Below, piece by piece: positions 4,232-34,137 of a stretch of 64,000 nucleotides of DNA. The stretch spans positions 369,848 to 433,847 of the forward strand of contig JAKJXP020000033.1 of assembly GCA_022225965.2 (NCBI GenBank). The letters run 5' to 3'. The DNA comes from Diatrype stigma (Eukaryota; Ascomycota; Sordariomycetes; Xylariales; Diatrypaceae). The position numbers and the translations under genes are program-made. The notes beneath the pieces were generated by a model. The model was not told the DNA's origin. It saw only the letters and a program-made list of their open reading frames with translations, and did not search any database. Numbering within the stretch: position 1 is the first letter of the stretch; each line of letters begins with the position of its first letter.

Positions 4232-5741
4232 CTACTTCGCTGAGACGAACTGGGCTTTAACGTCGCTCCATCTGCCTCTACGCATCGGATCAAGGTCTTG
4301 CACCTTTGCTAACCAAGCATGTGCATCTTCCCTTTCGCCTGCGCGTCCTTCAGCCAGTTCTAGCCGCCTGAGCGCGATGCTGTATTCTAAAAGGGCCTCG
4401 TAGATCCACTTCGTGTCCTTATAATCCACCAGGAGATCCTTGATATCGTCAATCTCACGGCTGAGGTAGCCGATCCTCTCCTGTAAGGTAAGGGCTGGCA
4501 CTACTGTGGCTTGTGTTTGATAGCTGGTGATTTGAGATATCAGAAACTGGTGGTAATACCAGAGGCTCTGGTCATCGGGCCCGACGTTCAGCGCGTCCTT
4601 CACCAACGCCAGCTCGTCATCTAGAAATGCCGCCCTCGTCTTGTCGTCGGCGCCTCGTTCGTCGAGTACCCGCACAATGAGCTGGCTGCGACTGTGCCAC
4701 GCCGAGAAATTGGACAGGTTCTTCTCGTACATCTTCTGTGTATAGGCCAACTCGCTCTCGGCCATGCTTTTCCCATGCAGGGCGGGGCTCTCGAGAGTGG
4801 CCACGACGTAGCGGCGGTATCCCCAGGCATGGAAGTTGCGGTTATCCTTGTCCAGCATCTTGGATACCAAGCCGAGTTCCGTCATCCAAATATCACGCGC
4901 CTGGGACAAGGGCAGGCGTAGGATGACTTGGGATAGGATCCAGCGCCGGAAATTCCAGATCCAGTAGCATTTGGGAAATCCTAGCAGGAGCGGGATAGTG
5001 AAATCCAGCTCCGCCCGTAGCACAACTCTGTCGGACTCCTGTTGCTGCGGTATCTTGGTTCTGCTGCCCTTCGCCTCTTTTGTCTCCTCATCAGCATCAG
5101 CATCAGCATCAGCCTCAGCCTCAGCCTCAGCCTCGGGGTCAGGTGTTGAACCACTCCCCCCAATCGTCGGGGAGTCTTGGCTTGGCGGGGTCGCAGCCGA
5201 GGAAGAAAGCGACGAGGGTGCGAAAGACGGTCTCGTAGTGGCGCTCGGTAAAGAACTCGGCGACGCCTTCGAGGGCCATGATCCAGCCGACGGTTTGCAT
5301 AATGAGCCAGAGATTAGACAGCGGCGACGGACGTTCCATATTGTGTAGTACTCCGGGTTGAGCCGCAGGAGCTTGGTGGTAAGTTGGAAGAGGGCCGGAT
5401 CGTCGTAGGAGGCGGCGCCCGCGGCTACTTTGGCACGGACCTGGTGCTCGAGATCTCGGTACGTCTCGATCTTGGCGAGCTCTTGTTGCCGTTGCTCGTC
5501 GGTTCGCGTTCGCGTTCGTTCGGTGCGGGCTATGCCATGCTATCACGCGCCCTCCCGAAGAGATTAGCGTTTATCGATCAGCGGCTAGATATCAGGTGTA
5601 TGTAGGTATGCAGCATGCAACGGTATTCAGGTGCTTCGTGTCCGTGTCCGTGTGGTTGTGGTAGAATAGATGACAGGGTGTTTGTGTTTGCTGCCCTGGT
5701 GGGTGCCAGGATAGGAGGGGGTTAGTACGTACACTTGCCAT
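4232..5741 (-). CDS. BET4: Rab geranylgeranyltransferase (type II) alpha subunit
   Basis: The alpha subunit pairs with Bet2 to add geranylgeranyl groups to the C-terminal cysteines of Rab/Ypt GTPases presented by the Rab escort protein, so it is needed for vesicle traffic. A three-codon first exon (5741-5733, M-A-S) is joined across an intron (5732-5540, donor GTACGT, acceptor TAG) to 5539-4232, giving 438 aa starting MASHGIARTERTRTRT. Prenyltransferase alpha (PPTA) repeats are visible: YYTIWNVRRRCL, YWIWNFRRWIL, NFHAWGYRRYV, NFSAWHSRSQL, SLWYYHQFL, KWIYEALLEY. Between the first two lies a low-complexity insertion of about 80 residues rich in Ser, Thr and Pro, ending in (Glu-Ala)n(Asp-Ala)n encoded by a GCA/GCC-type microsatellite at 5090-5138. 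The tiny first exon explains why the N-terminus is easily missed. Confidence 0.93.
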
Positions 5742-6906: not shown

Positions 6907-8983
6907 ATGCCCAACCCGACACCGAGTCCAGATCGCTTTGTGCCCATCCGTAGCGCCCCACCTCTCGGAGACCGGTTCCGCACTATCAAGGATCCCCGAG
7001 AGCTCTCGGCCTCGGAGAGACTGGCCCGCACCGACAGCTTTGCGCCCGATGCCTTCATCTCCAGCCACCGTCGAACGGCAGTGCTGCCCGCCCACCCTCG
7101 CAGGGTTTCACGTTCCGACAGTACAGACCGTCGAGTAGGTGGGTGCCTGACGTTCACGATCTTGCCTCTCCAGTCTTTCCGTATAGACGGCGTACCATTC
7201 CAGAGAAATCAACAGGCTAATCGCTGTTCTTCCAACTGACTAGGCACCACCTTAGCTGTAGGTTCGGGACCCAATACGTGCGGTTTGGAGCGCCAGGTCA
7301 GCCAAGGCACCGTCTAGTCCGTCGGAGGTCTGGCACCTGCAGGATCCGGCATCGACACCGGCCGAGGTCATCTTCTCAGCCCGGGTACCAATGCCCGTCT
7401 CTACACTACTTCCTTTCCCCACTCAGGGCCCAAGGGCGCGGAGGAGCAAGAGAGACACGAGGGCCGATTGGCTCTGGCGCTGAAGATGGACCGTGTCCAA
7501 CGTGTCCTAGATTTCGATGGCTATGCCACTTTTCCCCGGTGCAAGGGGGATTCCCGGGTCCGGTCTCGAGTAGATGGCTCTAGGACGACGTGGAACGGCA
7601 CGGAATGGAGCAATGACGACTATGTCCCACAGGCTCCGAAAGAAGCTCGGGCCCTTCCGAATGCTCCTTTCAAGTTGGTCATCCCACACCCTGCCCTGCC
7701 CCCACCCCCTTTCGGCCAGTGTCCGTGCGGTGTATTGACGTAGCATTAGGGTTCTCGACGCACCTGGTCTCCGAGATGACTTCTACTGCTCCATCATGGC
7801 ATACGACGCCAACTGCAACACGCTAGCAGTTGGCCTTGGAAACCTCCTCTACGGCTGGTCGGAGTCGACCGGTGTCAATATACTCAATACGGGCCTGGGC
7901 GATGGGTCCTGGCTGACATCGCTGGCCTTCTCGTCTGAACAAGGAGAAAAGTCTATTTTGGCGTTCGGTCGGTCGAACGGCCGTCTATCTTTGATGTCTC
8001 CTTTTGAACACATGTTGCCCCGATTCGAGACCCAGCAGGCGGCACCAGTAGCCTGTCTCAGCTGGCGTCCTACCCCCATGACCCGGGCATCGCTGAACCC
8101 GTCGGGCGCAGGCATGCCGGTTCAGACGGAGGGTCTTCTACTTGGCGATGAGCTGGGAGATGTCTATTTCTACTCTGTCGAGTGGCCTGATCCCTAGGAA
8201 GTAAGTAGACACAACTGGTCTGGCGCAACAACCCTCCTCGCACAAGTCAAAGTGCATTCGCAGCAGATTTGTGGCCTGTCGTGGTCGCACACCGGAGACC
8301 AGTTCGCGACAGGTGGCAACGACAATCTATGCTGCCTATTGGACCTGAAAAAGATCGTCGACATCGATGCAGAGGTCCCGGGAGGACCGGAGGCCCCTCC
8401 TACCAGCATATGTCTACCAGCCGGTTCCGAGAGACACAGATGGCAGCACGGAGCAGCCGTCAAGGCAATCGCCTTTTGCCCGTGGCGCGAAGGCTTAGTT
8501 GCAACCGGTGGTGGATCTAACGACAAGTGCATCCATTTCTTCCATACATCGTCAGGAGCGGCGCTCGCCACCATTGCCGTGGCGGCGCAGGTCACGTCGC
8601 TAATTTGGAGCACGACGCGGCGCGAGATAGCTGCCACGTTCGGGTACGCGCAGCCCGACCACCCGTACCGCATCGCGGTGTTCAGCTGGCCGGGATGCCA
8701 CCAGGTCGCCGCCGTCCCGTGGGAGGGCGAGCACCGAGCCCTCTACGCGATCCCGTATCCAGGGGGCCCGAGCGACACGTATCGCACGAGGAAGCGACTG
8801 CGCAGCCGAACGGCAGCTGAGGGATGTCTCGTCGTAGCAAGCAGCGACGAGAGCGTCAAGTTTCATGAGGTGTGGACGGCGGGTCGCAAGGCTACCACGG
8901 GGCTGGACAGCGGATTGCTTGCTGGCAGCGACATCTTGGAGATGAGCGAGGGTATTGACAAGGAGGGCGATGTGATACGATAA
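6907..8983 (+). CDS. AMA1: Ama1/Cdc20-Cdh1 family APC/C activator with two in-frame TAG codons
   Basis: WD40 activators recruit substrates to the anaphase-promoting complex; Ama1 is the meiosis/sporulation-specific member. Exons: 6907-7138, 7262-7673, 7750-8983 (626 codons including stop). An N-terminal C-box, DRFVPIR, follows nine residues in. The middle contains GHLLSPGTNARLYTT, then a WD40 domain from VLDAPGLRDDFYCS through HSQQICGLSWS and DKCIHFFHTSSGAAL. The last two residues are Ile-Arg, the IR tail that docks on APC3/Cdc27. TAG occurs at 7315-7317 (codon 96, RQVSQGTV-stop-SVGG) and 8195-8197 (codon 364, VEWPDP-stop-EVSRHNW); the same frame continues on both sides. As I recall the family, both sites are tryptophan. 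The gene is therefore either rescued by UAG-to-UGG editing (or readthrough) or is a very young pseudogene. The first stop could also be removed by an alternative intron, 7135-7317. The Ama1 rather than Cdh1 assignment is from memory of fungal orthologues. Confidence 0.85.
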
Positions 8984-15367: not shown

Positions 15368-18300
15368 TCAATACCTAGTTGACGACTGTGACTCAATCTT
15401 CTCTCGCCTGGGAACCTCATCGACGTCTGGATCACAGCGTTGCACTCTACCCTCTTCGAAGATAAGGGCGACACGAGACCCGAATTCGAACGGGCTCCCT
15501 TCATATACTACGAAGTCCTGAGTGCGTGGTAGCAGCAAGATATCCTCGATGTTCTTTGACACTAAGTCGAGTGCCATGCTATGATTTCCAGGACCCGCGA
15601 CCCAGCTGGCCTCCCAGATGCTGTTCCGGATGTGGTTGTTAGTGTCATCGAAGTTCGAGATGGCAACTTGGACGCCCGCGGCCATCAATACCTGGGGACC
15701 TAGCTGATCCTTTAGGGGTGGCCCTGGAAGGCAATTGCGGCCTTCCCAGAAGAGAGGCTCGCATCCCCAAAAGGGCGCAGAAATGACAGGCATTTGGGCA
15801 CCTGCGAGCTCCGTTGCTAGTAAATGTGCTTCGGCACCGCCCATTATGACGATATGAGCACCTGTTTCCCACTTCAAGGCCACCATATGTGCGATGACGT
15901 CCTTATTGTTGGTGTGGACGACAACAGGAATATCTCCCTTCGCGGCTCTCTGATAGATAGGGTGTAGGTGTTTGTCTATCGTGAGGAGATCGCGCAGCTT
16001 GCTAACCTGTGATGTGATGGACGGCGTTGCTGGACCTGTATCTGCGGGTTAGAGCTTCGAGACTTCTGACACAAGACAGGAGACGCGATAGCAGATACTC
16101 ACTTTTACCATCATGCCCGACAGTGAAGTGGAGCGCGGCATCAGGCACAGAAATAGCACCATCATCGAGTACTGGGGATATGTTAGCATGGCAGCACTTG
16201 ACGTGTCCTACTGCCTACGATTAAATCCCTCCGGCAAGACAGATGGACATACCACTTCTTGCCCCGGAACGGAACAGAGAGCTAATGCCGTGGAAGGATC
16301 CTTCAGTGAGCGGCGGCGTTACGATGCGAGTAACTCCGGCCCGGTGGGCTCTTTCCAGGTGCGTGCCATCAAACTTGATACCAAACCTACTCTCGAGAGG
16401 CCTTTCGTATCCGTCGCCGGCAGAGGCACCGTCAGTCGTTGAAGGCTCCTGTCGCATCTCTACCAAGCCATGTAGGCGCGTAACAATCGTAAGGCCCTGA
16501 TGATATACTTGTTTAGAATAGGAGCACCATGCTTGGAAGGTGATGTGACTTACAGGGAGCATATATCCTTGCTTAAGTGTTATGACGGGTACATCTTCGT
16601 CCATCGCTTGTTTTGCAAAGTCGTCACATCTTGTTTCACCAACACAGACGACTCGCCCTGAACGTATCACGGCCGTCACATCTCCGGCTTCGGCCTCTTG
16701 GCCCCGCCGACCGTCATCTCCCACAAAGCTCTCTCGCAAGCCACGCAGAACCATGTCAGACAGACCTGGTTCGCACTTGCTCTCGAGCACCGTCGTTGGC
16801 CGTGGCTGCGGGGCTTCTATCTTGAATTCTGGCGACTTAGATCTGTTCCAAAGTCTATCAGAAGCATTGACCACGCTACTTCCATCGATGAAGACCTCGA
16901 GAGGCGTCGCACCCACCCTCATAGGATGCCTGTCCCAGACGACAAGATCCGCATCGTAACCTGGCTGGATGAATCCAAGTCGATTGTCGAGACCTAGAAG
17001 GCGTGCCGGCACTGCAATGACGGATGAAATGGCATGGCGGGTTTCGAGGCCAAAATGATGCCCAATCTGCGCCTCGTATGCTAGCCATTGACCGTGTAAC
17101 GCAGGATGGTCACGAGTAAGAGCAAATGGAATCCCGCTGTCGGCGATCTTTCGGGGAAAGTACGAGCTCACATCATATAGCTCCTTTTTGTCTCCCCATG
17201 AGTCCGAAAAACCAACAACCGCGATGCCTCTGTCCCGGATTTCGTCGATGAGCAGGTCGGCATGTAGTGCATGGTGTAGTGCCGTGATGTTGAAGCCGAA
17301 CTCATCTGCGTGGTCGACCATGGCTAAAATATCTTCAGTCTCATAGCCATGCACATTGACGCGGACATCGCCGCGCAGAACATCGACTAGCGTCTGCCAC
17401 TCCAGGGAGCGGGGGTACTCTTCAGAGATCGAACCTGGACCAGTTGCCTTGTCAGCTGCGGCGCACCACTGGTCCTGTTCTCGCCTGACCCGGCGTGCGC
17501 TTTCGTATGCCTTGCGATACCAATAGGACTCTCCGATTCGAGTCGATGGCCCGCTAGCTACGTTCTGGAACTGTCGTTTTTGGTTCTCTCCCATGGCCAT
17601 CTTAAGATATCTCTGCGGCTTTCCGCCTCCTTCCAGCTGGTTGACAAGCATTTCCCGCACGGAATCAGCGTGCTTCATTTTGACGACGACGCCTTCACCC
17701 GAGATTTGGTTCTTGGCGCCCGTGAGTACTAGAGATGTTGTCACTCCGCCGCTAGCGATGACGGGAATCGCGTCGTCGTGGGGCTTGAAGGCATCAATGG
17801 CGCGCCCCCACGGTGTAACCGGCGCAGAGATTTCGGTCACGTCTTCTGTTGCCCAAAGCTGTGGCGTCTCCCGCACGCCAACGTGTGAGTGTATGTCTAT
17901 GAGTCCCGGTGTCACAATCCGACCGCCAAGATCTAGCAGCTCCGTATTTGGGGACGAGATCTGCTCCAGGAAATCCAGGGGGTCGGTGGAAACCTTCGTG
18001 AAGATGCCATCTTGCACCTCAATGTTGCAGTTCCATGTGACAGTCCCGTCGCCATCAATAAGTGTCGCATTGAGGAAGATCTTCCGCAAGCCGGTGCCAG
18101 CATGTGCGGCAAGCCGGGTAGATGCTAGACTCCGGTCCACAGTCGGACGCTGTTGATCCAGGGCACATCGTGCAAGGCCATACTCAAAATCAGCCTTGGA
18201 AATTCCGCGTGGGGTTATGAAGTCTTCTCTATGAGGTGGATGCCAATAATTTGATATAACAAATGTCGTAGCGATAGAAGCGATAACACTGGACACAAGG

Positions 18301-18413
18301 ACCCGGCTTGAGGCCGGCAGGACGCCTTTCTGGCCGTAACGCTGACCACTGTTAGGGCTCCTCTGCCTGGTCTTCTCCATTTTTGTGATGCTTCTCCAAA
18401 GATGTATGGGCAA
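15368..18413 (-). CDS. Membrane-anchored amidohydrolase (metal-dependent hydrolase superfamily)
   Basis: Exons on the minus strand: 18413-16554, 16496-16253, 16171-16103, 16035-15368, giving 946 aa. A short basic N-terminus and one membrane helix (VLVSSVIASIATTFVISNYW) predict a type II membrane protein with the enzyme outside the cytosol. The amidohydrolase core begins with IFLNATLIDGDG and VTPGLIDIHSHVG, whose HxH binds metal. Further metal-site candidates are NVHGYETED, TALHHALHADLL and ALTRDHPALHGQWL, and GYDADLVVWDRHP closes the composite domain. A second, diverged half follows (HTNNKDVIAHMVALKW, IVIMGGAEAHLLA, AISNFDDTNN). The first intron is 57 bp and in frame, so unspliced RNA reads through it. 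Some databases place such fungal proteins near CE9 deacetylases; the true substrate cannot be read from sequence. Confidence 0.85.
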
Positions 18414-19266
18414 TATCTATTGAGATTAACATGGCTTTCTACTCTACAATGATTTCAAGTCTTGTAATAACAAACATATATCCCGCGATCCAACATCTTC
18501 AGCTTTCATACACGACCAAACAGATCCATTCACCAACATAATCTACTTATAAATGTCAGTTAATCAGAAGCTAGTCTACGAAGTACGGCACGAACACATA
18601 ACCAGGCATAGGTTGATAGGAGAGAAGCGGACTAACGACTCGCTAAATCGATACTAGAACAGGAAATCACCTGCCGACCATGGGCAGGGGTGCTCTACCT
18701 ACCCACGGAGGGTCACAATACGCCAACAGAAGGTCTAGAAACACCAGAACATGTTTACTGATAGCACTATTCGGCTACTAGGTAACTATGTATGTTGGCG
18801 TCATGCGTATGCACCCGGAACGGCAACCTTTTCATATTCTCATAGGGCCAGTAGATTCCGGTTCGGTCTCCGAGCCTGACTCCAGAGCTTGTTGATAAGA
18901 CGAGAGATGGCTTTGACCGAATTGCTCGCGTCGAGATATCAAAAACGCATACGCACTTGGATTAGTGCATGATAACTGGAAAAGTAGCAGGCACCTACGT
19001 GACAGCGGCTATCATACACAACAGAATATTTAAATAAAGATGTAGGGGGATCAATTTAGAGAGCAGGCCCGCAAACCCCATTCTGGGGGTGGCGATGTGA
19101 AATACCGCAAACCCACGGCCATCTCCAAGTTAATCTCACTTTTCGGCATTAAAACCGTAGCTTGAAACTTCTCATAACACACTGTGCCGTTCTAACTTTG
19201 ACCGGAATGAATTCGGACAGCGATATATCCCACACATGTCTTCATGATACGACTTTGACTACGTGT
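18414..19266. other. Intergenic region
   Basis: About 850 bp between the 5' end of the amidohydrolase and the 3' end of the permease, both on the minus strand. It should contain the amidohydrolase promoter. I see no gene and no clear repeat. Confidence 0.5.
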
Positions 19267-21065
19267 CTAGTAGACATAGCGGAAGACAGGCTTCTGCTGC
19301 TTATCGGTCAGATCAAGGAATTCTCCAATAGGGGTACCAGGTTCGTTCTCTGCCAGAGCCGCGCGATCGCGTCTCTTGTTTTCCCAGATGAGATAGAACC
19401 GCAAGACAACACTGAGGACTATGCATAGGGCGAAGCAGACGAAAGCGGCGAGGAAAGCGCTGTGGTATACAGGCGCCTCGTTGGAGAGAAACAGCTGGGG
19501 CGCGGCTACCTGTCCCACGCAGAAGGCGACGTACATCATGGCCGATGCGGTGGCTTTTTTCGTGTAGCCCGCGAAGTTACTGGATACGAGAGACATGGTG
19601 AGTGTGCCGACAATACCATGGGTCTGCACGATATAATAGGAGCCTAGGAGCCCACGCTGATTTTCCCGGGGAAGAGTATAAAGCAGAACAGCTCCGATCA
19701 GGGCGGGGATTTGACAACCTAGCGTAGTTAGCCTCAGGAGTACGAAGTAGACATGCGGCATTTTGCCTGAGCGACGTACCAGCTATAAGCCAAGTCCTGA
19801 TGTTCTTGAAGTACTTGGTCATGAAACCTCCAAACAAGATACAGATAGCTTGAATGACGCCAAGAGGAACGAGGAGTAGCGTCGAGTACAGAGTATCAAA
19901 GCCGAAACCTTTGACAACGATACTGCCAAAGGACGCGACCCCACCTGCTGGAATATCGTCAAGGAAAAAGGTCAGGACAAGGATCCAACATTGGATGTCG
20001 AGCATGCACTCCTTGAATTGAGACCATTTCCAGACGTGATTCTCGATACTTGTCCGGTTGCTTCGGACACGCTCGATGGCCACCGCTCGGTCGGGCTCCG
20101 ACAGCCATCGAGCATTCATAGGCGAGTCAGGCAGATAGTAGAGCATGAAGCTGCCATACAGGATGGTGATAGCACCGAAGATCAGGAAAAACCAGGCCCA
20201 ATTCGGGACGGCGTAGTAGTTGATGTGAGCGATACCATAGCCAAGGAGCCCACCACAAACCTGGCCGATCGAGTTGCCCAAGTACCAGAACGAGATGCGT
20301 AGGGGCTGCTCCTCGCGAGTCCACCACTGGGAGGAGATGACGATGAAGGCGGGATTAATGCATGATTCGAGACAACCAAGAATGGCCCGGATGGTCATCA
20401 AGCTTGCGAATGATCGAGCCGCCGCCGTTGTCATTAACACAGCACCCCAGAGGATGGTCGCAATGCCTACGCAGCGGCCGATGGGGAAGCGCACGATCAA
20501 CCGCGCGACTATCGGCTGAGAGACCAAGTACGCTGTTGTTGATGGTCAGTCTGCGATCTTATACACGTAGTCATCAAGGCGGCGGTATAAAGGAGGCGAT
20601 AGTGCTTACCAAGGTAGAAGACAGATCCAGATGCCCAACTATACTGATTCCCAACCAAGTGCTTGGGGCGCTGTTAGCGCAGGACTCTATACATCATGCT
20701 GCGTAGGTACCCACGTTGTCTGTTTGGAGACCAAAGTTGGCCGAGTACGACAAGGCATTCTTATCCATGAAGTTGAGGGTGTATGTGATGACCATCTAGT
20801 CTCACCATTGTCAGCGGCTCAGATCCACATGGGCCATGTTTTGCCATGTGTCAACTGGGATGGCACGATGAATGGATGGCGGGCATACCAACGGCAGTAG
20901 ATGCCGGTCAATCTTGCGGAGAACGCGCTTGTTGTCAGCACCACTCAACGGGCCGATGCGATGCTGTTCCGCAAACACCAAGGCTTTGTCGCCGTCGCCG
21001 GATCCCTCTTCCGGGACGGATCGAACTTCGGGCTTTTCCATGGTCTTTCCCATATCAGGATCCAT
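19267..21065 (-). CDS. MFS permease, allantoate/Dal5-type anion:cation symporter
   Basis: Plasma-membrane transporter of the ACS (Dal5/Tna1) branch of the major facilitator superfamily, which takes up organic anions such as allantoate, nicotinate, biotin-type vitamins or dipeptides. Exons: 21065-20889, 20795-20715, 20670-20610, 20532-19780, 19718-19267, totalling 507 aa, the usual size. Family features are the cytosolic lead NKRVLRKIDRHLLPL, TM1 with TYTLNFMDKNALSY, VGNQYSWASG before TM2, the loop RFPIGRCVGIATILWG, the TM4-5 region with GCLESCINPAF, and TM7-12 after the central loop (SIVVKGFGFDTLYSTLLLVP). The charged tail is cytosolic. It diverges from the zinc-cluster regulator at 21931, a common arrangement for a permease and its regulator. 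The substrate is unknown. Confidence 0.9.
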
Positions 21066-21930
21066 ATCAGGAGCCCTTCGATCAGCGCAGCCAGTCCGTG
21101 CAGAGATGTTGGCTTGGAGAAGAGGGGGGCGGGCCAGCTACATGGCGTTGCGTTGCTGGCAGGCATTCTGTTTATTTTAAAGAAGCCAACCAACCCTGCC
21201 AGGCCACCCTTGGCCTTGGCTGATGTTGGTTGCTTATCTCCGGGTCGTCGCGCGTCGCCGTAGCCGCTTAACGGTGTTGGACCGCGCAACCGTGTCGCCT
21301 TATCAGTGAACTTATAAGCGTCTGGTCTTCCCTCCACCCTCCCGGGCTCTCCACCCTCCCGGGCTCTAGCATACATAGTAGCAACCTAGTTATCTAGACG
21401 ACACTAACAGATTAGCAGCTCTTCAACCCCCAGTCACGCTCAGCCAAGCCCAGGTGTTCCCTGAATCGCAGCGGTTTCATAGGGACCACGGCTGCCGCAC
21501 GGCTATGGACGACTTGTGGTGCTATTGCGGGGTCTAGTCTATCCGAGATGGTTGCCGAATGGAGAAAGACACGAGGCGAGCATTAGCAATAGCATCAGAG
21601 AACTCCCCAGAGCGACGTTTTCAGTCCATCTCCACCTCTCCATCCGACTGCGATTCCAATGTTAGATACCAGATGCGAAGCGAAGTCTCTCTTCACTGAA
21701 GCTCCCTTATTACCTTACTCAGTGAGCTCAAGCTCAGGCTTAGCCACAACGATCCCTGTTCTGTCGTCTGGTTATACAGTATACATCCCCCTTACATGAT
21801 CTAGCCGAAGCACATCGCTCGCTCGCATCGCATCGTGCCGCGCCGTGCATCGTATCGTGTCGTGTCTGGATGACAAGTCGTAATTGTGTAACCGCGTCGG
21901 ATCGGTGCTCTGATTGGAAGTCGGTTCCAC
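21066..21930. promoter_or_regulatory. Shared divergent promoter, permease / Zn2Cys6 regulator
   Basis: 865 bp between the two divergent starts. At 21334-21367 there is an exact tandem duplication of a 17-bp unit, CCACCCTCCCGGGCTCT, each with a CCCGGG palindrome containing the CCG/CGG half-sites that zinc-cluster dimers bind. Other CGG/CCG triplets occur nearby (for example 21238-21260). Binding by the adjacent regulator is inference. Confidence 0.45.
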
Positions 21931-23966
21931 ATGACTAGATCAGTAACAGAGGCACCCGGCACGAAGAGAAGCCGGCCGGCAAGGACCAAGACAGGTCTCT
22001 CTCACTCCAACTTTCTTGTATTCCCACTTTGGCATGCGGTTTCTAAATCTTCGCAGGATGCTCTTCGTGCCGTCGACGAAAGGTGCGTTGTGACGAGGCG
22101 AAGCCCGTCTGTAGAGCGTGCACACGTCTTGGGCTCAACTGCTCCTTCGAGCCTGACAAGACAACAAGCGTGACTGGCACATCGCGGTACCGCGTGCGGT
22201 TCGTGAATTCCCAGTACACCAAGCTCCCGCGGGGCGAGGCCGAGAAAAATGACGTTAAGACTGCGTCGACGTCACCCGAGCAGTCCCGCCTGCACTCTGT
22301 TCCGAACGGCGCGAGCTGTGCAGAGCCGCTCAATGGCAATGGCAACAATATCCATGTCAACACCGGGGGCGTAGGCATGCCGGAAAGCATGGATAGTTCG
22401 CGCCACCGCTATACTCGAGACGAGCCGACCGTCTTACCTTCTGCTACCGGCTCCCTTCGCCATGACGCCTCGTTTGGGGTGGTGCAAGACCCGGCTAATA
22501 TTGGTGTAGCCGTTGGTCTCAATGCGCAATTGATGAGCGTGCAAGATGCCCAGGTGAACCTAGGACACATGCCATCTTTCTTTGACCTTGACATGAACTT
22601 CGACTTACTTGATGAAGATTGGTTCCCGGCTCCAGTCCCAGATACAGGAGGCGATGGCCCATTAGTTGACACGACACCACGCTCAAGCGATGTCCTAGAT
22701 TCTGAACAGGAAGAGACGGCTGTTGTTATCGGCCAAGAAGACAACGGTCTCATCCAACACTACTTGAATGTGATGACCGGCTACGCCAAGATACGGTATT
22801 CCGGTGATGAAAACCTATACAGCCAGATATTCAGCGATATGGCCCTGTTCTACGCGCCTTTATACCATTGCGTCATGGCTTGGACCGCTCTACATCTCGG
22901 CCAGACGAAATCCGAGCCTGACTTAGTACAGAAGGCCACAGAACGATATTCGCATGCTGTCTCGTTGATGCACCGTGATCAAAACGTCGCCCATCATTTC
23001 GAGCTCTCCCTTATCACCATCTGGTTTGCCCTCCAATTCGAACTGCTGGCAGCCTCGGGAATCGTCCCCTTCTGCAGGCATCTGGAGTTTACTGCCGACC
23101 TTGTGGATGCCCACCGGCGCCACCAAAAGGCCGGAGGACAGGCAGCTCCTCTTGGCCCGATCGGCAGTCGCGTGTTGGTCTGGTTGGGGGCATACGATGC
23201 CCGAGCATCCTGGATTGGGGGGACGGGACGTCTGTTGCAGAACCTCGAGCTGTTCAGCTCAGAGTACGACTTCCTCAATGCAGCCTTCCCGGAGACACGA
23301 TCAAATTCGAACGGGCAAGACACGAAGCCATGCCTACAAGACACCAAGCCATGTTTGCGCTTGAATCTAGATTTCGATACGGTAGAGGGGAGGATCGTGC
23401 ATCTACATCGCAGGGAGGTCGCAGCTCCGGTCACGGTATGGACGACCGTGCAGGACGAATTGCTGTCGATCCAAGAGAGACTCGAGAGCGACAGGACCAT
23501 CGCTTCTATTGTTTCTTCCCTGTCCAACCCTACCCGCTCTCTTGGCGGTAAGATCACCATGAAGGGCTTCAATTGTTTCTTGCTCTTAGCAACCTTTTAC
23601 AGCGTAGTCATTTGCTACCACAGGATGCTGCCCCCTCGCGTGGTGAACAGTATACCGAAAAAGTTGATTTCCGCCGAATCCGCTGCCAAACGTATCATCT
23701 CCATAACATCTACAGTATGTCGATTGCGGCCGCCTTCGCCGCAGAATATCTGGCCCCGTATCCTGTTCCTAGCTGGCATCGAAACCACAGATATGGTATA
23801 TCAAGACTGGGTAGTGAAAACTCTTGCTGATGCCGAGGTATGGGGTGCCAATTTTGGGAAGACACGCGTGTTGCTCGAGCATGTCATCAGGATACAAGGT
23901 CGAGAAGGGACCAGGGTTGACTATTTGGACGTCATGAAGCAGACCACGGGCTTATTCATTATTTAA
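21931..23966 (+). CDS. Zn2Cys6 fungal-specific transcription factor
   Basis: Exons 21931-21994 and 22057-23966, 657 aa. Splicing inside the DNA-binding domain assembles the zinc cluster: RTKTGCSSCRRRKVRC followed by DEAKPVCRACTRLGLNC, six Cys with spacing C-x2-C-x6-C-x6-C-x2-C-x6-C binding two Zn ions. The basic residues before the first Cys are coded in exon 1, so the ATG at 21931 is required. The rest resembles the fungal-specific activation/regulatory domain (Fungal_trans_2 type), with NVMTGYAKIRYSGDENLYSQ and DMALFYAPLYHCVMAWTALH. A short internal duplication (QDTKPCLQDTKPCL) is coded at about 23317-23355. It sits head-to-head with the permease and upstream of an M20 peptidase; control of these neighbours is likely but unproven. 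Confidence 0.92.
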
Positions 23967-24370
23967 TTGTATCATCTAACGGGCGGGGGAGTCCAAGGAG
24001 TTCAGTGCAGTGTGAAATCTCTATGCACCATCTCATCGGGTCGGCCATGATTTCGTTATATCCTTATTGACCGATGATCATGATTATGATCATATGAGCC
24101 CTGCAGATGTCATCCTACGATGGACTATAGTATGGTTATGATACTTACCTAATTACGACACGATAGGGCATGATACGGATACTGGCGCTACTGCGAGGAG
24201 TCCACTTTCCGGATCGGGAAAGTCTGTCGGTAGCAATGGAAATACATCTATCAGCCAATATGTCCATTTCCACCTGTACGAGGAAGTGCCTACTGGGTCT
24301 AATAAGACATCGGCAGGACCCGAAGGTGTGCTTTAGGGTAGCACGTCTTCAACCGCAACATCGAGGGAGT
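23967..24370. other. Intergenic region with ATGATCAT inverted repeat
   Basis: About 400 bp between regulator and peptidase. At 24074-24093 two ATGATCAT units flank GATT, forming an almost perfect palindrome that could be a terminator hairpin or operator. No gene is seen; the in-frame upstream ATG at 24170 is treated under rejected items. Confidence 0.45.
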
Positions 24371-26198
24371 ATGGATTCCCATCGTAGGAGACCTGAGAGC
24401 CATGGCCGGCGGGTGAGACATGCCAAGTTTCTCTTCCTCGCCGGCATTATCTGTCTCGGTTCCCCCTTACCCTTCGTCGGTGCGTCAGAAACCAGCGGAC
24501 GCTGGACTCAACTGTCCCTGGGTAGACAGCGTACTGCAGACCAGTGGTGCCCGTTACCAAATGTCACCTCGTCTAGTGATGACGGCCTCCAGCCTAGCGA
24601 TCATCTAATGAGCTCCGAGCAGCGGCAATTGCAGGTTCGGCGGCTCACAGCTGCCGTCCACGTTCCTACTGAGAGCTTTGATGACAACGGTAACGTCAAT
24701 GAGGACCCCCGTTGGGAGACGTTCGATCACTTTCACCACGTCTTAAGCGAGCTTTTCCCTCTCGTGTACGTAGCATGCCCCCCTCCACCCCCCCTATTCT
24801 TTCATTTCTGATCTGTACGGTGGCCACAGTCACTCGAAGCTTGAGCTCCGCAAGGTAAACCGGTATGGTCTCCAATATACTTGGAAGGGTTCCAATTCCT
24901 CTTTGAAGCCTCTCCTCTTTACGGCACACCAAGATGTGGTCCCGGCGGGCGATGCCTCCCTTTGGACATACCCGCCATTTTCGGCACATTACGACGGGTC
25001 GTTCGTATGGGGCCGCGGAGCAGCAGATTGCAAGAATGTCCTGATCGGGGTCTTGTCTGTCATCGAGAACCTCCTATCCCAGTCATTTATGCCACACCGG
25101 GCCATTGTGCTTGCCTTCGGATATGACGAAGAGACGGGTGGCATGCGAGGTGCAGCATCGCTCAATGCATCGTTGCTAGAAGAATGGGGCTCAGACTCTT
25201 TCCTTTTCGTTCTCGACGAAGGTGGCATGGGCGTGCAGGCCCTCGGCGACGTCTTGTACGCCTACCCTGGTGTTGGCGAGAAAGGTTACTATGATGTCCA
25301 GCTAGCGCTTCAGGTCAAGGGCGGCCACAGTTCACGGCCTCCGCCCCATACAGGAATTGGCATCATGGCTGAAGCGATCCTGGCCCTAGAAAACGAACCG
25401 TACTACCCGCGGCTCACCCAATCCAATCCATTCCGCAGCGTCCTCGAATGTAACGTCAAGTACTCGCCCGAGGCGGTCCCACCATGGCTGCGTGATGCAC
25501 TTCTTCATGGTGGCGAGGAGGAAATTGCTAGGAGGCTTTCCGAGTTGATGCCGGACGAAAGATGGTTGATGCAGACGAGCCAGGCGGTCGATGTTATTAC
25601 CGGAGGTCACAAAGTTAACGCTCTTCCAGAAGAGGTTCTGGTCCAGGTCAACCATCGTGTCGCACTGCACGAATCTGTCTCCTACGTCAATCATCACATT
25701 CGCCATGTTCTTATGCCCATTGTACGGAAGTACGGACTCCAGTTCGAGGGCTTTGGTACGGAGAGCCCGGGTGACAGTAGCACCTCGAATGGATATTTAC
25801 GTTTGAGAGGCCTGCAGACGCTTGATATAGCTCCGATTTCCCCAACTGAGGGAGGTGTATGGAACGTTTTTAGCGGCACGCTGCGGCATGTGTTTGAGAG
25901 CACAGAAATGGGGCAAGGCAAGACTGTCGTCCCTGCCGGCAATATTATGACAGGCAACACAGACACAGTGCATTACTGGAGTTTGACCAAAAATATTTAT
26001 CGCTTCACTCCCGCGAGGGAGGGGACAAGACTGAACCCGCATGCCGTCGATGAGCGAATGGGCATAACAGCCCACTTGGAGGGGATGAGGCTATACTATG
26101 GTGAGTTTTGACCCTGCACCGATATATATATATATCCACAAGATATGCTAACGATCCAAGACTTGATCCGTAATTTCGACAGCTGGGAAGACGAATGA
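24371..26198 (+). CDS. M20-family metallopeptidase (Cps1 / Gly-Xaa carboxypeptidase type)
   Basis: Exons 24371-24765, 24830-26100 and 26161-26198, 567 aa. This family removes C-terminal residues from small peptides or N-acyl amino acids using two Zn ions. The N-terminus has a basic cluster followed by a hydrophobic signal anchor (FLFLAGIICLGSPLPFVGA), as in vacuolar Cps1. The Zn-site motifs are in order: LLFTAHQDVVPAG (His), WGRGAADCKN (bridging Asp), FGYDEETGG (catalytic Glu and next Glu), LDEGG, and near the end GNTDTVHYW (last His). The dimerisation domain starts about VKGGHSSRPPPHTG. The last exon supplies DLIRNFDSWEDE; reading through its donor would instead add only EF. I chose 24371 because the sequence upstream in frame is not protein-like and the signal anchor begins here. 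It may provide amino acids taken up with the nearby permease. Confidence 0.9.
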
Positions 26199-26969
26199 AA
26201 TATTTGTTATTATAACATAAGGAGCTACAACTGCACGAATAGCGATGGGTAGACTTGGATACTAATGTCCTAGGACTTTCGGAGTGTACCTAGTCTATTC
26301 CTGTCCATAGTTGAATTACGTCTAGGGAGCATATCATGTTCAAGTGGTCGATTTGTCATGATGACACCGTAAATGTTAATGCGAACTGTATTTGGAATAC
26401 ACAACCCAGTCTGCGTAAAGGCGGCCGTCAAAGGAATTGGGGGTTGTAGGCGGTTAAGCAGATTTCTTCATTAACAGTTCCAGAAAATGAAACTCCTCTC
26501 CTTCCCCCCTTTTCCACCGGAGCCAAAGCCGGTCAGATCCCGTCATGAACCGCCTATACTATAGTTTACCCATTGATTTAAGTCATAGCTAATTCAGTAG
26601 CTCATGTTGATCAGGTTCAACGGTCCTCGGGTATGATATTTCCTAATTAGGAAACCATGTCGCCTAAAACACCCAATCACAGAACTCATAGAAAATCTTC
26701 ATTGCCGATACAGGTAGTTTCCCAAGGTGGGCAGTACATGCCACCCCAACAGTGCTGTAGAGCCGCTGAGCTCCGGGAATAAGGAAGACTACCCGCTAGC
26801 GAACGCAAAAACACACCATATCGTTGAAGCCCAACTCATGGTAAATAGAGTAACCATGAGGACTCAGCCGTACTTATCAACATCTACAATGCTGCCACAT
26901 ATGGAAGTCTTATAGAAGACAGACGGCAAGACCTATATTCACAATGTCATCGGGTTAGCTCAAAGCAAT
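26199..26969. promoter_or_regulatory. Upstream region of ABC transporter gene
   Basis: 770 bp, both neighbours on the plus strand; it should hold the 3' end of the peptidase transcript and the ABC promoter. No gene or strong motif is seen. An (AT)n run at 26122-26135 lies just upstream, inside the peptidase's last intron. Confidence 0.5.
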
Positions 26970-29900
26970 ATGGTGCAAGCACCCCTTCAACACCCCATCG
27001 CCTTCTCGGGATCGCAGGTAGCCCATGAAAACCCAAACTTCGGCGATAAACTCTCAAAAAGAACAGTGTGGTTATACCGCACCAATGCTATATCGAAGTT
27101 TGTTTCCACAGGCTACCTACACCTAGGATGTTTAGCTTTATCTCTTCTCTGGCTTTTAGCATCCGTGGCTCTAGCCAACAGATCAACCAAGCGCAAGGGG
27201 AAAGCTGGCTGCTCAAGGACGGCATCCGGCCAAGTATATGGCCGACACACAGCTCCTGAGTACTCGATACTGCAAGCAGTGTTTGCAGCCTCTGCCTTGT
27301 CTCTCTCCTTGTACTCTGGAATACAACACGGGTCATGGATAGAAACAATTATTCTGGGTTACATACTCATTCTTCTTATCGCATTATGCACGAGCAGATC
27401 CAGCCCACTGATTACGCCAATACGCCACCATATGAATGGGATCGCAGTTGCCTGCATAGTCCTTGAGGTCGTCAAACTACTCCCCCCTATCACGATTATC
27501 GGATCGCACAATACGCCAACGACCGCGGAGCTCGCCAAACTGGCCAGTTTGGCGCTCGTACCACTCGTCTCCTTCCTCTCGCCTCGTCGTCCGCAGAATA
27601 AGACGCCCAACCCGGAGTCTTTGACCTTAGCGTTTCAGGAGGCAACCTCGCCAGAGGAGACCTGCTCGTGGTTCTCATACTATGTTTCCTATGGCTGGCT
27701 AACTTATCTCACTTTGAAAGGCTTCCGGAACGACCTGACCATTGAAGATCTTCCGCCTCTGCCTGCATATGATGCGCCCCTAACCTTGTTAAGCCGCATG
27801 TGTAGAGCGCGTCTCAGAGGAGGCAAAACACTCTCGGCATTATGCAGGACGTTTCAAACAGACATCAGAACGATCTTGCTCTGGTCCGTCGCCACAGCCG
27901 TTGCCGAATACCTCGCACCATTTGCCATGCTTCACCTTCTAAGCTACCTCGAGAAGCCGGATTCCAATACCGTGATCCTGCATCCGTTCGTGTGGATCAC
28001 CCTCCTGTTTCTGGGGCCCATGGTACGATCCATCTGCTACCAGCGATCTATCTTTGTGGGTACTCGGCTCCTCGTCCGGGTCAAGGCGACGATGATCCAC
28101 GAGATATACCGGAGGGTGCTGTGGTCGCGATTGGGTGACGACTCACAGGCTCGGAACGGAGAGCCGGCGCAAGGTCCGGCCTTGGATTCACCAGGCAAAC
28201 CCGCCTCGGACGCTCTCGGGCATCATTCTGTCAAAATAGAAAGTCTGGTGTCGTATGACGCCGATAACATCTCGAATGCTACCGACGTCTTCTACGCCAT
28301 GACGGCTAGCACGATGTCCGCGGTGATTGCCATGTCTTTCTTATATCACCTCATGGGATGGCCATCGCTGGTTGGTGTCGCCGTCTTGTTGTCTTTGAGC
28401 CCACTCCCTGGTCTATTCTCCGGGCGACTATCCCGCCTACACAGGTTCGTTATGGAAGCCACCGATGCTAGGCTCTCCAAGATATCGGAGTATCTACACT
28501 CGATTCGCACACTGAAATATTTCGCCTGGGAGACAATGGCTTCGGAAAAGATCGATGCCATCCGCGCGATCGAGCAGCAGAGGATCTGGAGACGTAACAT
28601 CATCTCCATGCTAGTTTCCATGACGGGCGATATGCTGTCCCTCGTCAGCCTCCTCTGCACGTTCTCCTCCTTGGTCCTCTTCACCGACCAACCGCTACGA
28701 GCTCCCACAGCTTTTACCGCCCTAGCGCTTACAGAGATTTTGCGTGCGCAGTTCGTCTGGCTCTCCAAAGTTGCTCAGTGGGTTGCGCAAGGCCGCGAAT
28801 CATTACACCGCGTCGACGAATTCTTCGACGCTGCGGTAGAGAGGAAGAGACACCCCACTGGGCCGCCTGCGTTCAGAAACGCAACGTTCCGACCAGCAGT
28901 GTCTTCTACCTTCTACCTACGCGACATTTCTATCTCGTTCCGCGAGAGAGCTCTTACCGTTGTGACAGGACCTACTGGCAGTGGCAAGACGACTTTGCTG
29001 TTGTCGCTGCTGGGCGAGACTAGTATAGAGTCCGGAGAAGTATCTTGTCCCCCAGATGTAGCTTACGTGCCCCAGACTGCATGGCTTCTGAACACCACAG
29101 TGCGGCAGAACATTCTCTTCTTCAGCACCTACGACGAGCTTCGGTACGAGGCAGTAGTGCACGCGTGTGACCTCGCAGATGACCTGAGACAACTTCCCAA
29201 TGGCGATCTAACCCACGTTGGGGAGCAAGGATCTAGCCTTTCCGGAGGTCAGAAGCAGCGTATCTCATTAGCGAGAGCACTATACTCCCCGTCCTCCACT
29301 CTTCTACTCGACGACATCTTCTCGGCCCTCGACACACACACTATTACCAAGGTGTACGAGCGATGCTTTGGTAGTGAACTGTTGGCTGATCGAACGGTTA
29401 TCTTGGTGACCCATTTTCGAAATGCAATCGAGAACGCCGGCACGGTGGTTTCTCTCGCTCAGGGCAAAATATCCTCTATCGAATCGTCGACCACGAACCT
29501 ACCTATTGATGCGAAGTTGTACGAAGTAGGCTGTGAAGAAACCGGCATTATATTTCGTAGACTGCCGGACTGCATTGGCAGCACCGAGAGCGCCGAGGAG
29601 GACGTAGACTACGATGAGGAAGATGAAGAAGAAGGGCAATACGCAGAAACTGCAAAGTACGTGGAGGCTGTCGTAAATCTGGATGATGCTGGGCCACAGG
29701 AGCACAAAGCCTCGGGTCGCGTTCCGCGCGGGCTTAGTAAGTTTTCCGACCCCCCTACAAGCAATACAATTCCATCTTACCATGTTACAGTCGTTAAGTA
29801 TGTGCTCCTCTTCGGAGGCTACCCCGGTGCGGCTCTGGCTGTCGTCAGCGCTCTTGCCGTTCAGGTTGCATACTTCTCTATCACATTGTGGTTGTCCATC

Positions 29901-31824
29901 TGGACAGGGCATGTCGACGAAGACGATTATGCCGCTAAAGCAACGACCTACCTCCTTGTTTATGTCGGCGCCGTGATGGCGTTCGTTACACTTCAGTTCA
30001 CCAACAACTTGATTTACCAAAGAGGCGGATGGATAGCGGCCAAGACGATGCATGAAAAGCTGATCGCTGCTGTCCTTCAAGCCCCTATCTCTTGGTTCGA
30101 TAGCAACCCTGTCGGCCGCATCATCAACCGCTTCGGACTGGACACGCAATCTATGGACAGCGTTCTGGTAGATTGGCTACGTATGACTCTTGATAACGGT
30201 CTTCGGTTCGCTCTTCGCTTGGTTCGTTACATGTCTCCGTGCCCATTGTTCAATCCCCTTTACCCCTGTCACCCTACCCCCTATTTGCAGTCTGCTACCC
30301 CGCCCCCTTATTGCCACCCCCACCTCCAGATTGTCACCAAAAAGCTATCACGAACTAACATCGCCCTAGGCAAGCATTGCAGCGATCATGCCAATATTCG
30401 CCCTACCAGCCGGCTTCTTCTGTCTTATTGGATTTACTACAGGCGAGGTGTATGCGCGCGCGCAGATATCTATCAAGCGCCTCTGTGCTGTAAACTTCTC
30501 TCCCGTATTCTCCCACTTCAGCGATACCTCCGCGGGGATTGCTGTTATCCGGGCCCGACATTCCGTGGATCGTGTCTTTCAGGAGCTGCTAGCTGAAAAG
30601 GTCGCGACGCACATGCGAGCATATGAAGCACAGTACAACTGCAACCGCTGGGTTTCCGTTCGATCGGATTGCTGTGCGGCCATTATTGCCACGACAGCTG
30701 GCTGCATTGCCTACTACAAATCTGGATCGCCAGGCCTCGTGGGCTTCTCTCTGACAAATGCAATCGGTCTGAGCCAGACGATACTGACATTGGTTCGTAA
30801 CATGAATGAATTAGAGGTCGAACTGAATTCGTTCCAGCGCGTATCGGAGTATGCCAATATCGAGCCCGAGGAGCGCCCTGAAGACGCGGGTGACGCACGG
30901 AAGGACAAGGTACGGGCAGCCTGGCCCACATCTGGGCTTGTCGAATTCCAAGCTGTCACTGCCCGCTACGTTGAAAATGGACCCGATATCTTGCACCGTG
31001 TAAATTTCGTAGCTTACCCTGGCGAACGCGTAGCCATTATTGGCCGCACAGGGAGTGGAAAGAGCACGGTCGCAAGAACCCTTATACGTTCTACACACAT
31101 AGCCTCTGGCGCCGTGATGGTTGACGGCGTGGATATCGCCAATATCCCCCTCAGGCAGCTGCGGCAGAGCATCAGCCTCATCCCGCAGGAATCGGTAGTG
31201 TTTTCCGGTGACATCCGGTCGAACTTGGATCCCCGGGGCGAACTCGATGAAGCCGAATTGCACAGCATCCTCGCGTCGTGCAGCCTACTACAGGACGGTC
31301 ATGGTGATGGTAATGATAATGATAATGACGATGGTGACGAACCCTATAACAGCAGCACTACCGGCCTGGCAGCCTGCAGCCATGTGGCGGGCAGCGGCAA
31401 CAATTTCAGCAATGGGCAGAAGCAAATCCTCGGTCTTGCGCGCGCTATGTGTCGTCGCTCGAAAGTCGTCATCCTGGACGAGGCGACGGCTTCAGTGGAC
31501 CATGATACCGATGTGCGTATGCAGCAGCTTATTCGGTCTTCGTTCGCGGGCTCCACGATCATCACTATTGCTCACCGCTTGCGCACCATCATGGACTATG
31601 ACCGTGTGATAGTGATGGAAGAAGGCCGGATCATTGAGTACGTTGTCTCCGAGCCACACCCGCATGTTCTTTTCTCTGACAAGGTTGTTCCTACTAACCA
31701 TGAACAATTTGACAGGATCGGAACTCCCGCGGACTTAATTCGAATGCAGGGGCCCTTTTGGAAGACGTTAAAGAACAATAGCGATTATAACGAGCTAGTA
31801 AGCCTCATAAAACAGAAAAATTAA
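26970..31824 (+). CDS. ABC transporter, ABCC/MRP subfamily, full length
   Basis: Membrane pump exporting conjugates or drugs, with layout TMD0-TMD1-NBD1-TMD2-NBD2. Inferred exons: 26970-29736, 29791-30221, 30370-31637, 31716-31824, giving 1524 aa. Two introns (54 and 78 bp) are multiples of three without stops, so they can be mistaken for coding sequence. About five helices precede the first ABC domain. NBD1 has Walker A GPTGSGKTT (residue about 667), LSGGQKQR (about 757) and LLLDDIFSALD, where the catalytic Glu is Asp, as usual for NBD1 of this subfamily. An acidic linker (EEDVDYDEEDEEEG) follows. NBD2 has GRTGSGKST (about 1291), FSNGQKQ and VVILDEATASVD with the catalytic Glu intact. An Asp/Asn/Gly-rich insertion coded by GATAATGAT repeats (31303-31340) precedes the NBD2 signature. 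The start at 26970 is the first good ATG. Confidence 0.9.
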
Positions 31825-32792
31825 CAAGCAACTAGTCTTATAGTAAATACATATTATTAAGCGCCTTTTCCTGTGAGTTTTCGTTTTCATTTTGAAGTCT
31901 GTCGCCTTGATATCATGATTGTATGTAGTAAATTGCGTGTATGTATACGGCGGGTGGTAGCTAGATTGTCACGCTATTGTACCCCGGATTTCATGGTGGG
32001 TCTTACGAATTAGGTACTTGGTAATTATAGTGATGTGTCTAGCAGGGACCCAGGGTATAGCAGGGTGCAGGAAGACATCCCGGTCCATCTGCCCATGAAC
32101 CATCACGTGAAACATAAAGCGATAATGGATCCGACTCAAAGACATTCTTTACATCATAAGACAGCCGTCTGTATTCATAAACGCCATCAGCCACTCCGAC
32201 CTCAAGGTTGCCGGGGCTAGTGAGCTGCTACGAGCAATACGAGGCCTACATGGCGACTTGACTGTTCACCGTCAATGCGGTGCTTTCATTCTTGCCTGAG
32301 CCGCTTCCGTATGTATCCATGTTCTACCAGTCCGGCGATGATTCCTTGCCTGACCACTTAGAACATTGTGGCCACCATTCCCCGGTTGGCTGCTATTATC
32401 AGAGCTGTGCATTGTATGGCTAGCAAATCCACCAAATGCCCTCGGTTTCCGATGAAAAGCATGCGATGTCCAAGACCAGATCTGCTAAAGTTAAGGCATT
32501 CTCATGCTTCAACAGAGCTAGACTCCAGCACTGACATCGGATTTGGAGATTGGACACGGAAACAATTTCTCAAGAAGCACGTAGCCTCAAGGGACTGGAA
32601 AGGTGAAGAAACCGGGGTCATGCAGGTGGTTGGCGAGGACCTCGTGTGCCTGGGAATAGAATCTATGGCTACTAGGTGTCTCTGACGATGACTGCTATCA
32701 AGCGTGTGCCACACGATGTTGTCCGATAGTTTGGTGTGGCACTGAAAACCCGATCAGGAGTAACTACAATGTCTATTGCCCCAGTCGGTAAA
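31825..32792. other. Intergenic region between converging genes
   Basis: About 970 bp between the 3' ends of the ABC gene and the GH105 gene. It contains only short ORFs (for example 32368-32685) without recognisable motifs; no gene is supported. Confidence 0.5.
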
Positions 32793-34137
32793 TCAAGAAA
32801 CTTGTGAATGATTCTTCGCTTCCTCAAGAAGTTCGTACTCGTAACTAGCGAACAAGAATGGCGAGACACCTTTCAGATCGTTTTCGAACAGAGGCATACT
32901 AGCGTAATACTGTCAAGATAGTAGCACATCAGTACGAAACGATAAAGCATAACAAACAGATCTCAGGGGTTGGTAGATTTGTGAAACTTACTTCAAAGGT
33001 TCCATTTGAGCTTAGACTTCCTGTCTGCACCGTCCACTGGTACGTCAATGCGCCATCCGACCCTCTCGGCCTCGCAAACGTGCTCGTCATGAGTTCATAG
33101 CCGGCCAGCGCCGATTGCTGGTATCGTTGCCCTTCCACGAAGCCGAGTCGAAGCGCTTTCATCAGCCCGACGACGAACATTGAGGATCCCGAACTCTCTA
33201 TGTAGTTGCCCCAGATGCCCTCCGTGCCAGGGGTCATGATCAACCACCAGCCCTTCGTCTTGTCGTCCTGAGCCGCCACGACCGCATCGCAGAGCGATCG
33301 CAGGTACCCGAGCATGCGACCGTAACCCGGGTGCGATGCAGGAAACAACTGGAGTACCTCGACAAGGGACATGAGATACCAGCCCACCGCGCGGGCCCAG
33401 ACGTGAGGCGCGGCACCTGTCTCCGGGTCGGCCCAGACCCTGGTCTTACTCACATCAAATCCATGGACCGGCAAGCCATGGTATCGGTCTGGGTTCGAGC
33501 GTGTCCCAGCGTCAATGAGATCGAACTGGAGCGCAATGTCATCCCAGGCCGTGGCGTTTTCGGGCTCCATTTCCCGTGTCCAGCGTGCGTAGTACACATC
33601 GAGCATGAATATCCCGTCAAGCCACATCTCATCAGCGTAGTCGGGATACCGGTGATCGAAGCCGCCGAGGGAATTACGGTGCGAGCTGTCGATTTGCGCT
33701 CTGAACTGAGATGCTGCTGTCTTGTATATTTCGTCGCCTGTGGCCGCATACATGTCTAGGTAGGTGTGACCGTACCGGATATCATCAATCGAGGTGCTTC
33801 CGTTGTAGAATAGGATGTCCTTGCCGTTGTCGGCGGGGTATAGTAAGATATCTGCCATATACCGCACAAAGCCGAGGTATTTGGAGTCGCCCGTGCGTTC
33901 ATAGGCGAGCATTATACCCGATAGGCAAGCCGAGACCGTGTATGAGCCCTCGGGTTCTATCCCGTGCTTCATTATCGAGTCGGCCATCCATGTCAAGTAG
34001 CGCGGTCCTCCGCCGAACACGTCCGGCTCTACTTTCGAGTCCGGCGATACGGACCAGCCGCCGGGCAACTCGACCTGAGAGGCGCATATGAGACCAAAAA
34101 TTTGGAAGACGGAAAGTGAAAAGAGTGAGGGATTCAT
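32793..34137 (-). CDS. Secreted GH105/GH88-type unsaturated glucuronyl/galacturonyl hydrolase
   Basis: The family cleaves the unsaturated uronic acid left at the non-reducing end of oligosaccharides by polysaccharide lyases, typically from rhamnogalacturonan. Exons 34137-32992 and 32909-32793 give 420 aa. A signal peptide (MNPSLFSLSVFQIFGLICAS) indicates secretion. The (alpha/alpha)6-barrel is recognisable from YNGSTSIDDIRYGHTYLDM, GFDHRYPDYADEMWLDGIFM with the Asp expected as general acid/base, HVWARAVGWYLMSLVE, WWLIMTPGTEGIWGNYIESS and SSMFVVGLMKALRLG. The second exon supplies YYASMPLFENDLKGVSPFLF and a typical C-terminus; ignoring the intron gives a wrong tail. It is the last gene before the RIP-degraded block, and it is intact. 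Confidence 0.9.

Follow-up and report, generated by a model that had tools for sequence, protein, structure and literature searches.

The AMA1 gene of Fusarium graminearum (FgAMA1) is reported to need UAG-to-UGG editing in sexual reproduction (Hao et al. 2019; PMC11156358, PMC9600606, PMC11050156, PMC12582100), and in the Neurospora kinase gene PUK1/stk-21 (NCU03242) a premature UAG at a conserved Trp, standing in a TAGTGG arrangement, is edited in perithecia (PMC4817773). RID is described as another gene with a premature stop codon (PSC gene) in F. graminearum (PMC4817773). In yeasts, a Tad2-Tad3-Ame1 complex was reported to edit mRNA; its cofactor Ame1 is a DUF726 protein, in which a Met-Val pair made the binding of Tad3 possible in Sordariomycetes (PMC11087585). 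Why genomes keep stops that editing must remove, whether through a neutral ratchet or through selection for a stage-specific lock, is an open question. Here we describe an AMA1-type gene of Diatrype stigma with two in-frame TAG codons, which an initial annotation had read as candidate sites of A-to-I recoding.

The AMA1-type gene and its two in-frame TAG codons

The gene lies in the window, by which we mean the whole 64,000-nucleotide stretch of DNA that was analysed (contig C33, 369848-433847, of a 49-Mb assembly in 224 contigs) and the end of which is the contig end. Its features are given below in window coordinates.

6907..8983, + strand: AMA1-type APC/C activator gene with three predicted exons, 631 codons plus TAA (from the translation and full-length homologues)
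6907-7138, 7244-7673 and 7750-8983, + strand: predicted exons in one frame, with the TAA at 8981; borders as predicted, not from cDNA
6931..6951, + strand: DRFVPIR, codons 9-15 of the translation, a C-box-like motif
7139..7243, + strand: predicted intron 1 (GTGGGT...TAG), phase-consistent, with a CTAAT branch-like site at 7217
7292..7340, + strand: predicted RNA hairpin that places A7316 in the loop (fold of 61 nt, -19.8 kcal/mol)
7315..7317, + strand: in-frame TAG as codon 102, standing at the Trp conserved in GTV-W-SVGG; A7316 is the predicted site of editing
7674..7749, + strand: predicted intron 2 (GTTGGT...TAG), from a sequence scan
7754..8749, + strand: CDC20/Fizzy-type WD40 propeller region, codons 223-554, from a match to the profile PF24807
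8195..8197, + strand: in-frame TAG as codon 370, standing at the Trp conserved in VEWPxx-W-EV; A8196 is the predicted site of editing
8975..8980, + strand: C-terminal Ile-Arg tail, codons 630-631 of the translation, 3' of both stops

The TAG codons at 7315-7317 and 8195-8197 are the sole in-frame stops, and the frame needs no frameshift; the earlier statement that neither a frameshift nor another stop lies between the C-box and the Ile-Arg tail is borne out by the three-exon translation. That annotation had drawn a 625-codon frame from 7262, which is intact and holds both stops where it placed them, but the fuller model has 631 codons and 7262 falls inside exon 2. Two TGA codons counted by the genome search, one per matched stretch, lie within the predicted introns, at 7237 and 7736. 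The translation, with both stops written as X, matched PF24807 with an E value of 1.4e-58 and 199 bits (curated cut-off 200) and aligned to solved chains of Slp1, Cdc20 and Cdh1. The divergent neighbour of AMA1 is a gene for a protein prenyltransferase alpha subunit with PPTA repeats (4232-5539, - strand). The window is AT-rich from 34000 to the contig end at 64000 (about 24% GC, vs 51% in 1-34000), and beside this block, at 16221-34146, lie genes for an amidohydrolase, an MFS transporter, a Zn-cluster regulator, an M20 peptidase, an ABC transporter and a GH88 hydrolase. A search of the 64-kb window against Rfam gave no match.

AMA1 is single-copy in the genome, a Cdh1-like gene on contig C53 and a Cdc20-like gene on C31 being separate loci. 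The top two matches of the translation are Monosporascus proteins and three more from this genus stand within the first 23 (63-72% identity for all five); most other near-top matches, among the best 120 of 1415, come from Xylariales, and the matches place the source organism probably in Xylariales, close to Monosporascus. Matches covering 99% of the query include the Ama1-named proteins P0050 (Bcama1), P0058 and P0091; the closest relative, P0042, is a protein of 416 residues that matches 65% of the query at 83% identity. From these full-length Ama1-named matches and the separate Cdh1 and Cdc20 loci we assign the gene as an AMA1 orthologue, not Cdh1 or Cdc20, and its predicted role is that of an APC/C activator serving as a meiosis-specific cell-cycle switch.

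We aligned 186 homologues (the best 120 of the 1415 matches and 66 new ones from the best 120 of 167) and inspected the columns of both stops. At codon 102, Trp was found in 159 proteins, Tyr in 3, Leu in 1 and Glu in 1, with the residue absent in 22, so that Trp makes up 159/164 of those present (97%); at codon 370 the counts were Trp 135, Ser 3, Tyr 1, Arg 1 and absent 46 (135/140, 96%). The expectation that both stops fall at Trp positions of the family is confirmed by these columns. If two stops arose by substitution at random, the probability that each was a change of TGG to TAG is 0.015-0.042, and the argument that decay would not pick just Trp codons and TAG, correct in that both stops stand at Trp columns, is weak by itself; it amounts to more than chance because the orthologues carry Trp at both codons. 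Besides the two TAG, the frame holds 14 TGG codons, and 17 Gln and 12 CGA codons, each one transition away from a stop, are intact, with no TAA or TGA in frame. With UAG at orthologue Trp codons of an otherwise intact, conserved frame, AMA1 has the makings of a PSC gene.

Edited sites in F. graminearum favour C/U at -2, U at -1, A/G at +1, G at +2 and A/G at +3 and +4; about 62% of the sites there lie in loops, and loops matter more where the neighbours are less preferred (PMC9600606). The site at codon 370 (CCCU-A-GGAAG) has all six preferred neighbours, as the sole one among the 52 UA sites of the frame, and A8196 is predicted in a stem, not in a loop, which counts against editing. The site at codon 102 (GUCU-A-GUCC) has three of the six, and A7316 lies in a predicted hairpin loop, a far from rare placement, found for 15 of 50 UA sites. 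With n = 2, the modelled folds would fit the trade-off between loop and neighbours. The U before both adenosines, pointed out earlier, is there; it is implied by any TAG and is therefore not independent evidence.

Relatives' gene models and alternative origins of the stops

In relatives, the presence of TAG was inferred from protein gene models and not from nucleotide sequences. We counted internal gaps of at least 5 core columns and found 243 in 127 of the 186 proteins, counts that come from related sequences and are not independent. The last skipped column was a conserved Trp in 54 of the 243 gaps, where 2000 random placements gave 6.6 on average and 17 at most, and the 54 gaps end at codons 370 (29), 545 (11), 275 (7), 102 (3), 596 (2), 326 (1) and 507 (1). 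Seventy-three gaps start at a consensus Val (GT, a phase-0 donor), 43 of them ending on Trp, and such a start was found for 26 of the 29 exact skips at codon 370. The last codon of a phase-0 skip must end in AG, so that codon cannot be TGG.

Taxon sets were assigned from source names (a few rows being named just Xylariomycetidae sp.), with Leotiomycetes as the comparison group. Of the 60 models named as Xylariales, 44 skip codon 370, with 29 resuming exactly at 371, and 16 have Trp there; these 16, as well as P0042 with its Trp at 370, count against the editing reading. Among 38 named Leotiomycetes, by comparison, 36 have Trp, one Ser and one Arg and none skips the codon, though 2 of 29 gaps in this group do end on Trp, both at codon 545 in Lachnellula. 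As to the check proposed earlier, whether related species keep the TAG, the models of many avoid the same codons, as a TAG there would make them do, and some Xylariales read Trp at codon 370. None of the five Monosporascus models has Trp at either 102 or 370; at codon 102, two resume exactly at 103 and three read Tyr right before the skip, as a splice within the TAG (between TA and GT) would give. Residue 102 is absent in five Fusarium models taken for the F. solani complex, and codon 275 in 20 of 28 Fusarium models including that of F. graminearum, in keeping with the published finding that FgAMA1 depends on editing of a premature stop. When each skip is treated as TAG and five proteins with another residue are left out, the Fitch count for the skip state at 370 is 11 changes over 181 tips vs a shuffled mean of 42; the state is phylogenetically clustered, with turnover.

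Two further patterns were seen in these models. The Lachnellula proteins P0075 and P0077 skip exactly Trp 545, as do several models from Xylaria, Nemania and Fusarium; for another Leotiomycete, Botrytis, editing is reported as not found in apothecia (PMC11156358). In Hypoxylaceae (e.g. P0031, P0036, P0040, P0048) a second gap recurs at codons 543-568, which covers Trp 545 and ends elsewhere, perhaps marking a further stop at 545.

The skips in relatives could also be taken at face value, with both TAG codons spliced out, always or as an alternative form, by short introns that end at them. The stretch 7258-7317, phase 0 and 60 nt long, has a perfect GTAGGT donor and a TAG acceptor, and its removal as an intron, which counts against the editing reading, would take away the first TAG; many relatives' models splice at the TAGs in this way, and both splicing and editing are reported for FgBUD14 (PMC11156358). 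The skipped stretches are, however, conserved coding sequence in full-length homologues, the donors available for the second TAG are weak (GTAGCC, GTTCAG, GTCTAT), and a scan of 7258-7317 found no CTRAY branch-like site. Furthermore, annotation is described as putting false introns at editable stops, an error of exactly this kind in edited genes (PMC4817773, PMC11169179). We consider splicing of the two codons improbable.

Slightly less probable still is a young pseudogene, i.e. an AMA1 lost by two nonsense mutations and otherwise undecayed, for instance in a strain without a sexual cycle. Such a gene would carry two in-frame stops as this one does, its sister P0042 has Trp at 370, and G-to-A at both sites fits a RIP-like CpA-to-TpA change on the opposite strand, the alternative named by the initial annotation. 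The composite RIP index is nevertheless -0.37 gene-wide, against +0.52 in the AT-rich block; 203 nt round the first TAG score +0.61, a small sample that points opposite to the gene-wide value. Against loss also speak the missing frameshift, the standing Gln and CGA codons, the position of both stops at Trp columns and the fact that many relatives probably have stops at these codons too. Relaxed constraint 3' of the stops was looked for in identities and branch lengths, and both were like those of relatives: 3' of the second stop the protein is about as similar to eleven outgroups as those of Monosporascus and P0042 are (e.g. 77.7% identity to P0003 vs 76.9-78.8%), its root-to-tip distance of 0.99 lies within the 0.86-1.25 spanned by 21 other tips (the tip used for rooting not counted), and its terminal branch of 0.12 compares with 0.169 for P0042. 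The AMA1 protein is not evolving faster than its relatives', also 3' of both stops. An assembly or sequencing error, or plain readthrough of the stop codons, is the least probable account, since an error would have had to strike each of two near-invariant Trp codons independently, which is improbable, and relatives' models avoid the same codons.

Editing machinery and a second candidate target

The genome holds four DUF726 loci, and the Met-Val pair was found solely in one of them (C25:343932-344990). In this locus the positions E+15, R+17, D+58 and H+98, counted from the nucleophile Ser, are as in FgAme1; its Met-Val pair stands one residue nearer to the Ser, a difference in spacing that counts against the editing reading. 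The other three, among them the paralogues on contigs C16 and C26, have Asn-His, Arg-Asn and Leu-Asp at the pair position. A Tad2-like gene (L059, with HAE and PCxxC) and a Tad3-like gene (L063, with HAA and PCxxC) are also present, both assigned by motif. Tad2, Tad3 and an Ame1 of the Sordariomycete type are by these motifs, not by a tree, the putative orthologues encoded in this genome.

A PUK1-like kinase gene of the AGC/NDR type (C5:143689-144471) carries TAGTGG (L075:3778-3783) in an Asp-Trp-Trp-Ser-Leu-Gly motif. Among the best 120 of 1303 homologues, the first Trp of this motif is skipped in 76 models and present in 44; by source names, the skips comprise 70 of 73 Xylariales, none of 26 Leotiomycetes, none of 3 Pyricularia, none of 3 nameless and 6 of 15 other models. 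Magnaporthe oryzae is reported to have G at the site (PMC4817773), with which the unskipped Trp of the Pyricularia models would be in line. From its domain, motif and skip pattern we regard the C5 kinase as PUK1-like and as a likely second target of editing. The number of in-frame TAG codons among kinase matches was considered as a genome-wide test and rejected: all translated ones bar one were introns ending in TAG or lay on the wrong strand, which makes the kinase TAGs unusable as a test for TAG excess; the exception, the sole kinase match translated with a TAG inside conserved coding sequence, is the C5 kinase.

The frames of two RID-like DNA methyltransferase genes (C59 and C175) are open, which gives no support for RID as a PSC target here and counts against the editing reading. 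A Spo11-type match was found in the genome and fits a meiotic organism. A scan of the genome for the MAT alpha box gave no match, the control likewise matching nowhere, and an HMG-box scan gave 19 matches, none of them assigned as a MAT gene. In addition, contigs C102, C71, C29 and C136 hold four deaminase domains of the OTT_1508 type, to which the Neurospora OLD antiviral editors belong. Viral contigs scanned for relatives at the nucleotide level gave five pattern matches, none of them a relative.

Proposed gating of AMA1 and comparison with known systems

Taken together, the Trp columns, the skipped codons, the machinery and the likely second target support the initial reading as A-to-I recoding, and we hold A-to-I editing that corrects both premature UAG codons in AMA1 to be highly probable and by far the best explanation of this sequence. 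Under this explanation any AMA1 transcript in hyphae would yield a fragment of 101 residues, with the C-box and without a propeller, and a transcript edited at the first site alone would stop after 369 residues, with an incomplete propeller and without the Ile-Arg tail. Deamination of both adenosines would take place in perithecia, and a complete activator, including the propeller and the Ile-Arg tail, would come solely from doubly edited transcripts. The two sites would act as a lock with two keys, since leakage equals one editing level multiplied by the other. Such gating would keep hyphae free of an active meiotic APC/C activator, which agrees with the trade-off between survival and reproduction put forward for other PSC genes (PMC11156358, PMC12754623).

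We lean slightly towards a wider view, in which AMA1 has been locked anew several times. In different Sordariomycete lineages, Trp 102, 275, 370, 545 and perhaps 596 would independently have become UAG and dependent on editing; the present species, like Monosporascus, would have two locks forming an AND gate, with leakage in hyphae nearly impossible, and the 14 standing TGG codons would be the pool for new locks. Lineages that lock different Trp codons of AMA1, some of them two at once, would make the question of neutral ratchet or selection testable by comparison. If the editing explanation is true, AMA1 and PUK1 are mis-annotated in most of the Xylariales models listed (44/60 and 70/73, respectively) and editing operates in the order Xylariales. 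A literature search by terms found, among the papers it covered, no report of premature-stop A-to-I editing in Xylariales, a general review naming Monosporascus and RNA editing being left aside. The mechanism and the gene have been described before; what looks new is the order, the pair of sites, a site at codon 370 that Xylariales apparently share, and a set of locked Trp codons that apparently turns over.

Compared with described systems, the gene is closest to FgAMA1, which belongs to the same family and has a premature UAG in need of UAG-to-UGG editing. The editing of the F. graminearum orthologue, suggested in the initial annotation, is in print (PMC11156358, PMC9600606), but it appears to concern a different Trp: F. 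graminearum and many Fusarium models skip Trp 275, whereas the present gene has TGG there and its stops at 102 and 370. PUK1/stk-21 resembles it through the UAGUAG or UAGUGG site, and the PUK1-like kinase of the present genome has the TAGTGG that is edited in Neurospora; PUK1 differs in being a kinase with tandem stops, whereas the AMA1 stops stand 268 codons apart. CHE1 and ZAO, edited in hyphae by the OLD deaminases, share UAG-to-UGG editing, a U just before the edited A and annotation artefacts of the same kind (PMC11169179, PMC12754623), but this editing is vegetative or virus-induced and its targets are zinc-finger proteins, and for AMA1 it is expected in the sexual stage. The genome's own Cdh1 and Cdc20 of the Fizzy family are WD40 APC/C activators like AMA1, with 43% and 40% identity over the best stretches, and differ from it in having no stops over the matched region.
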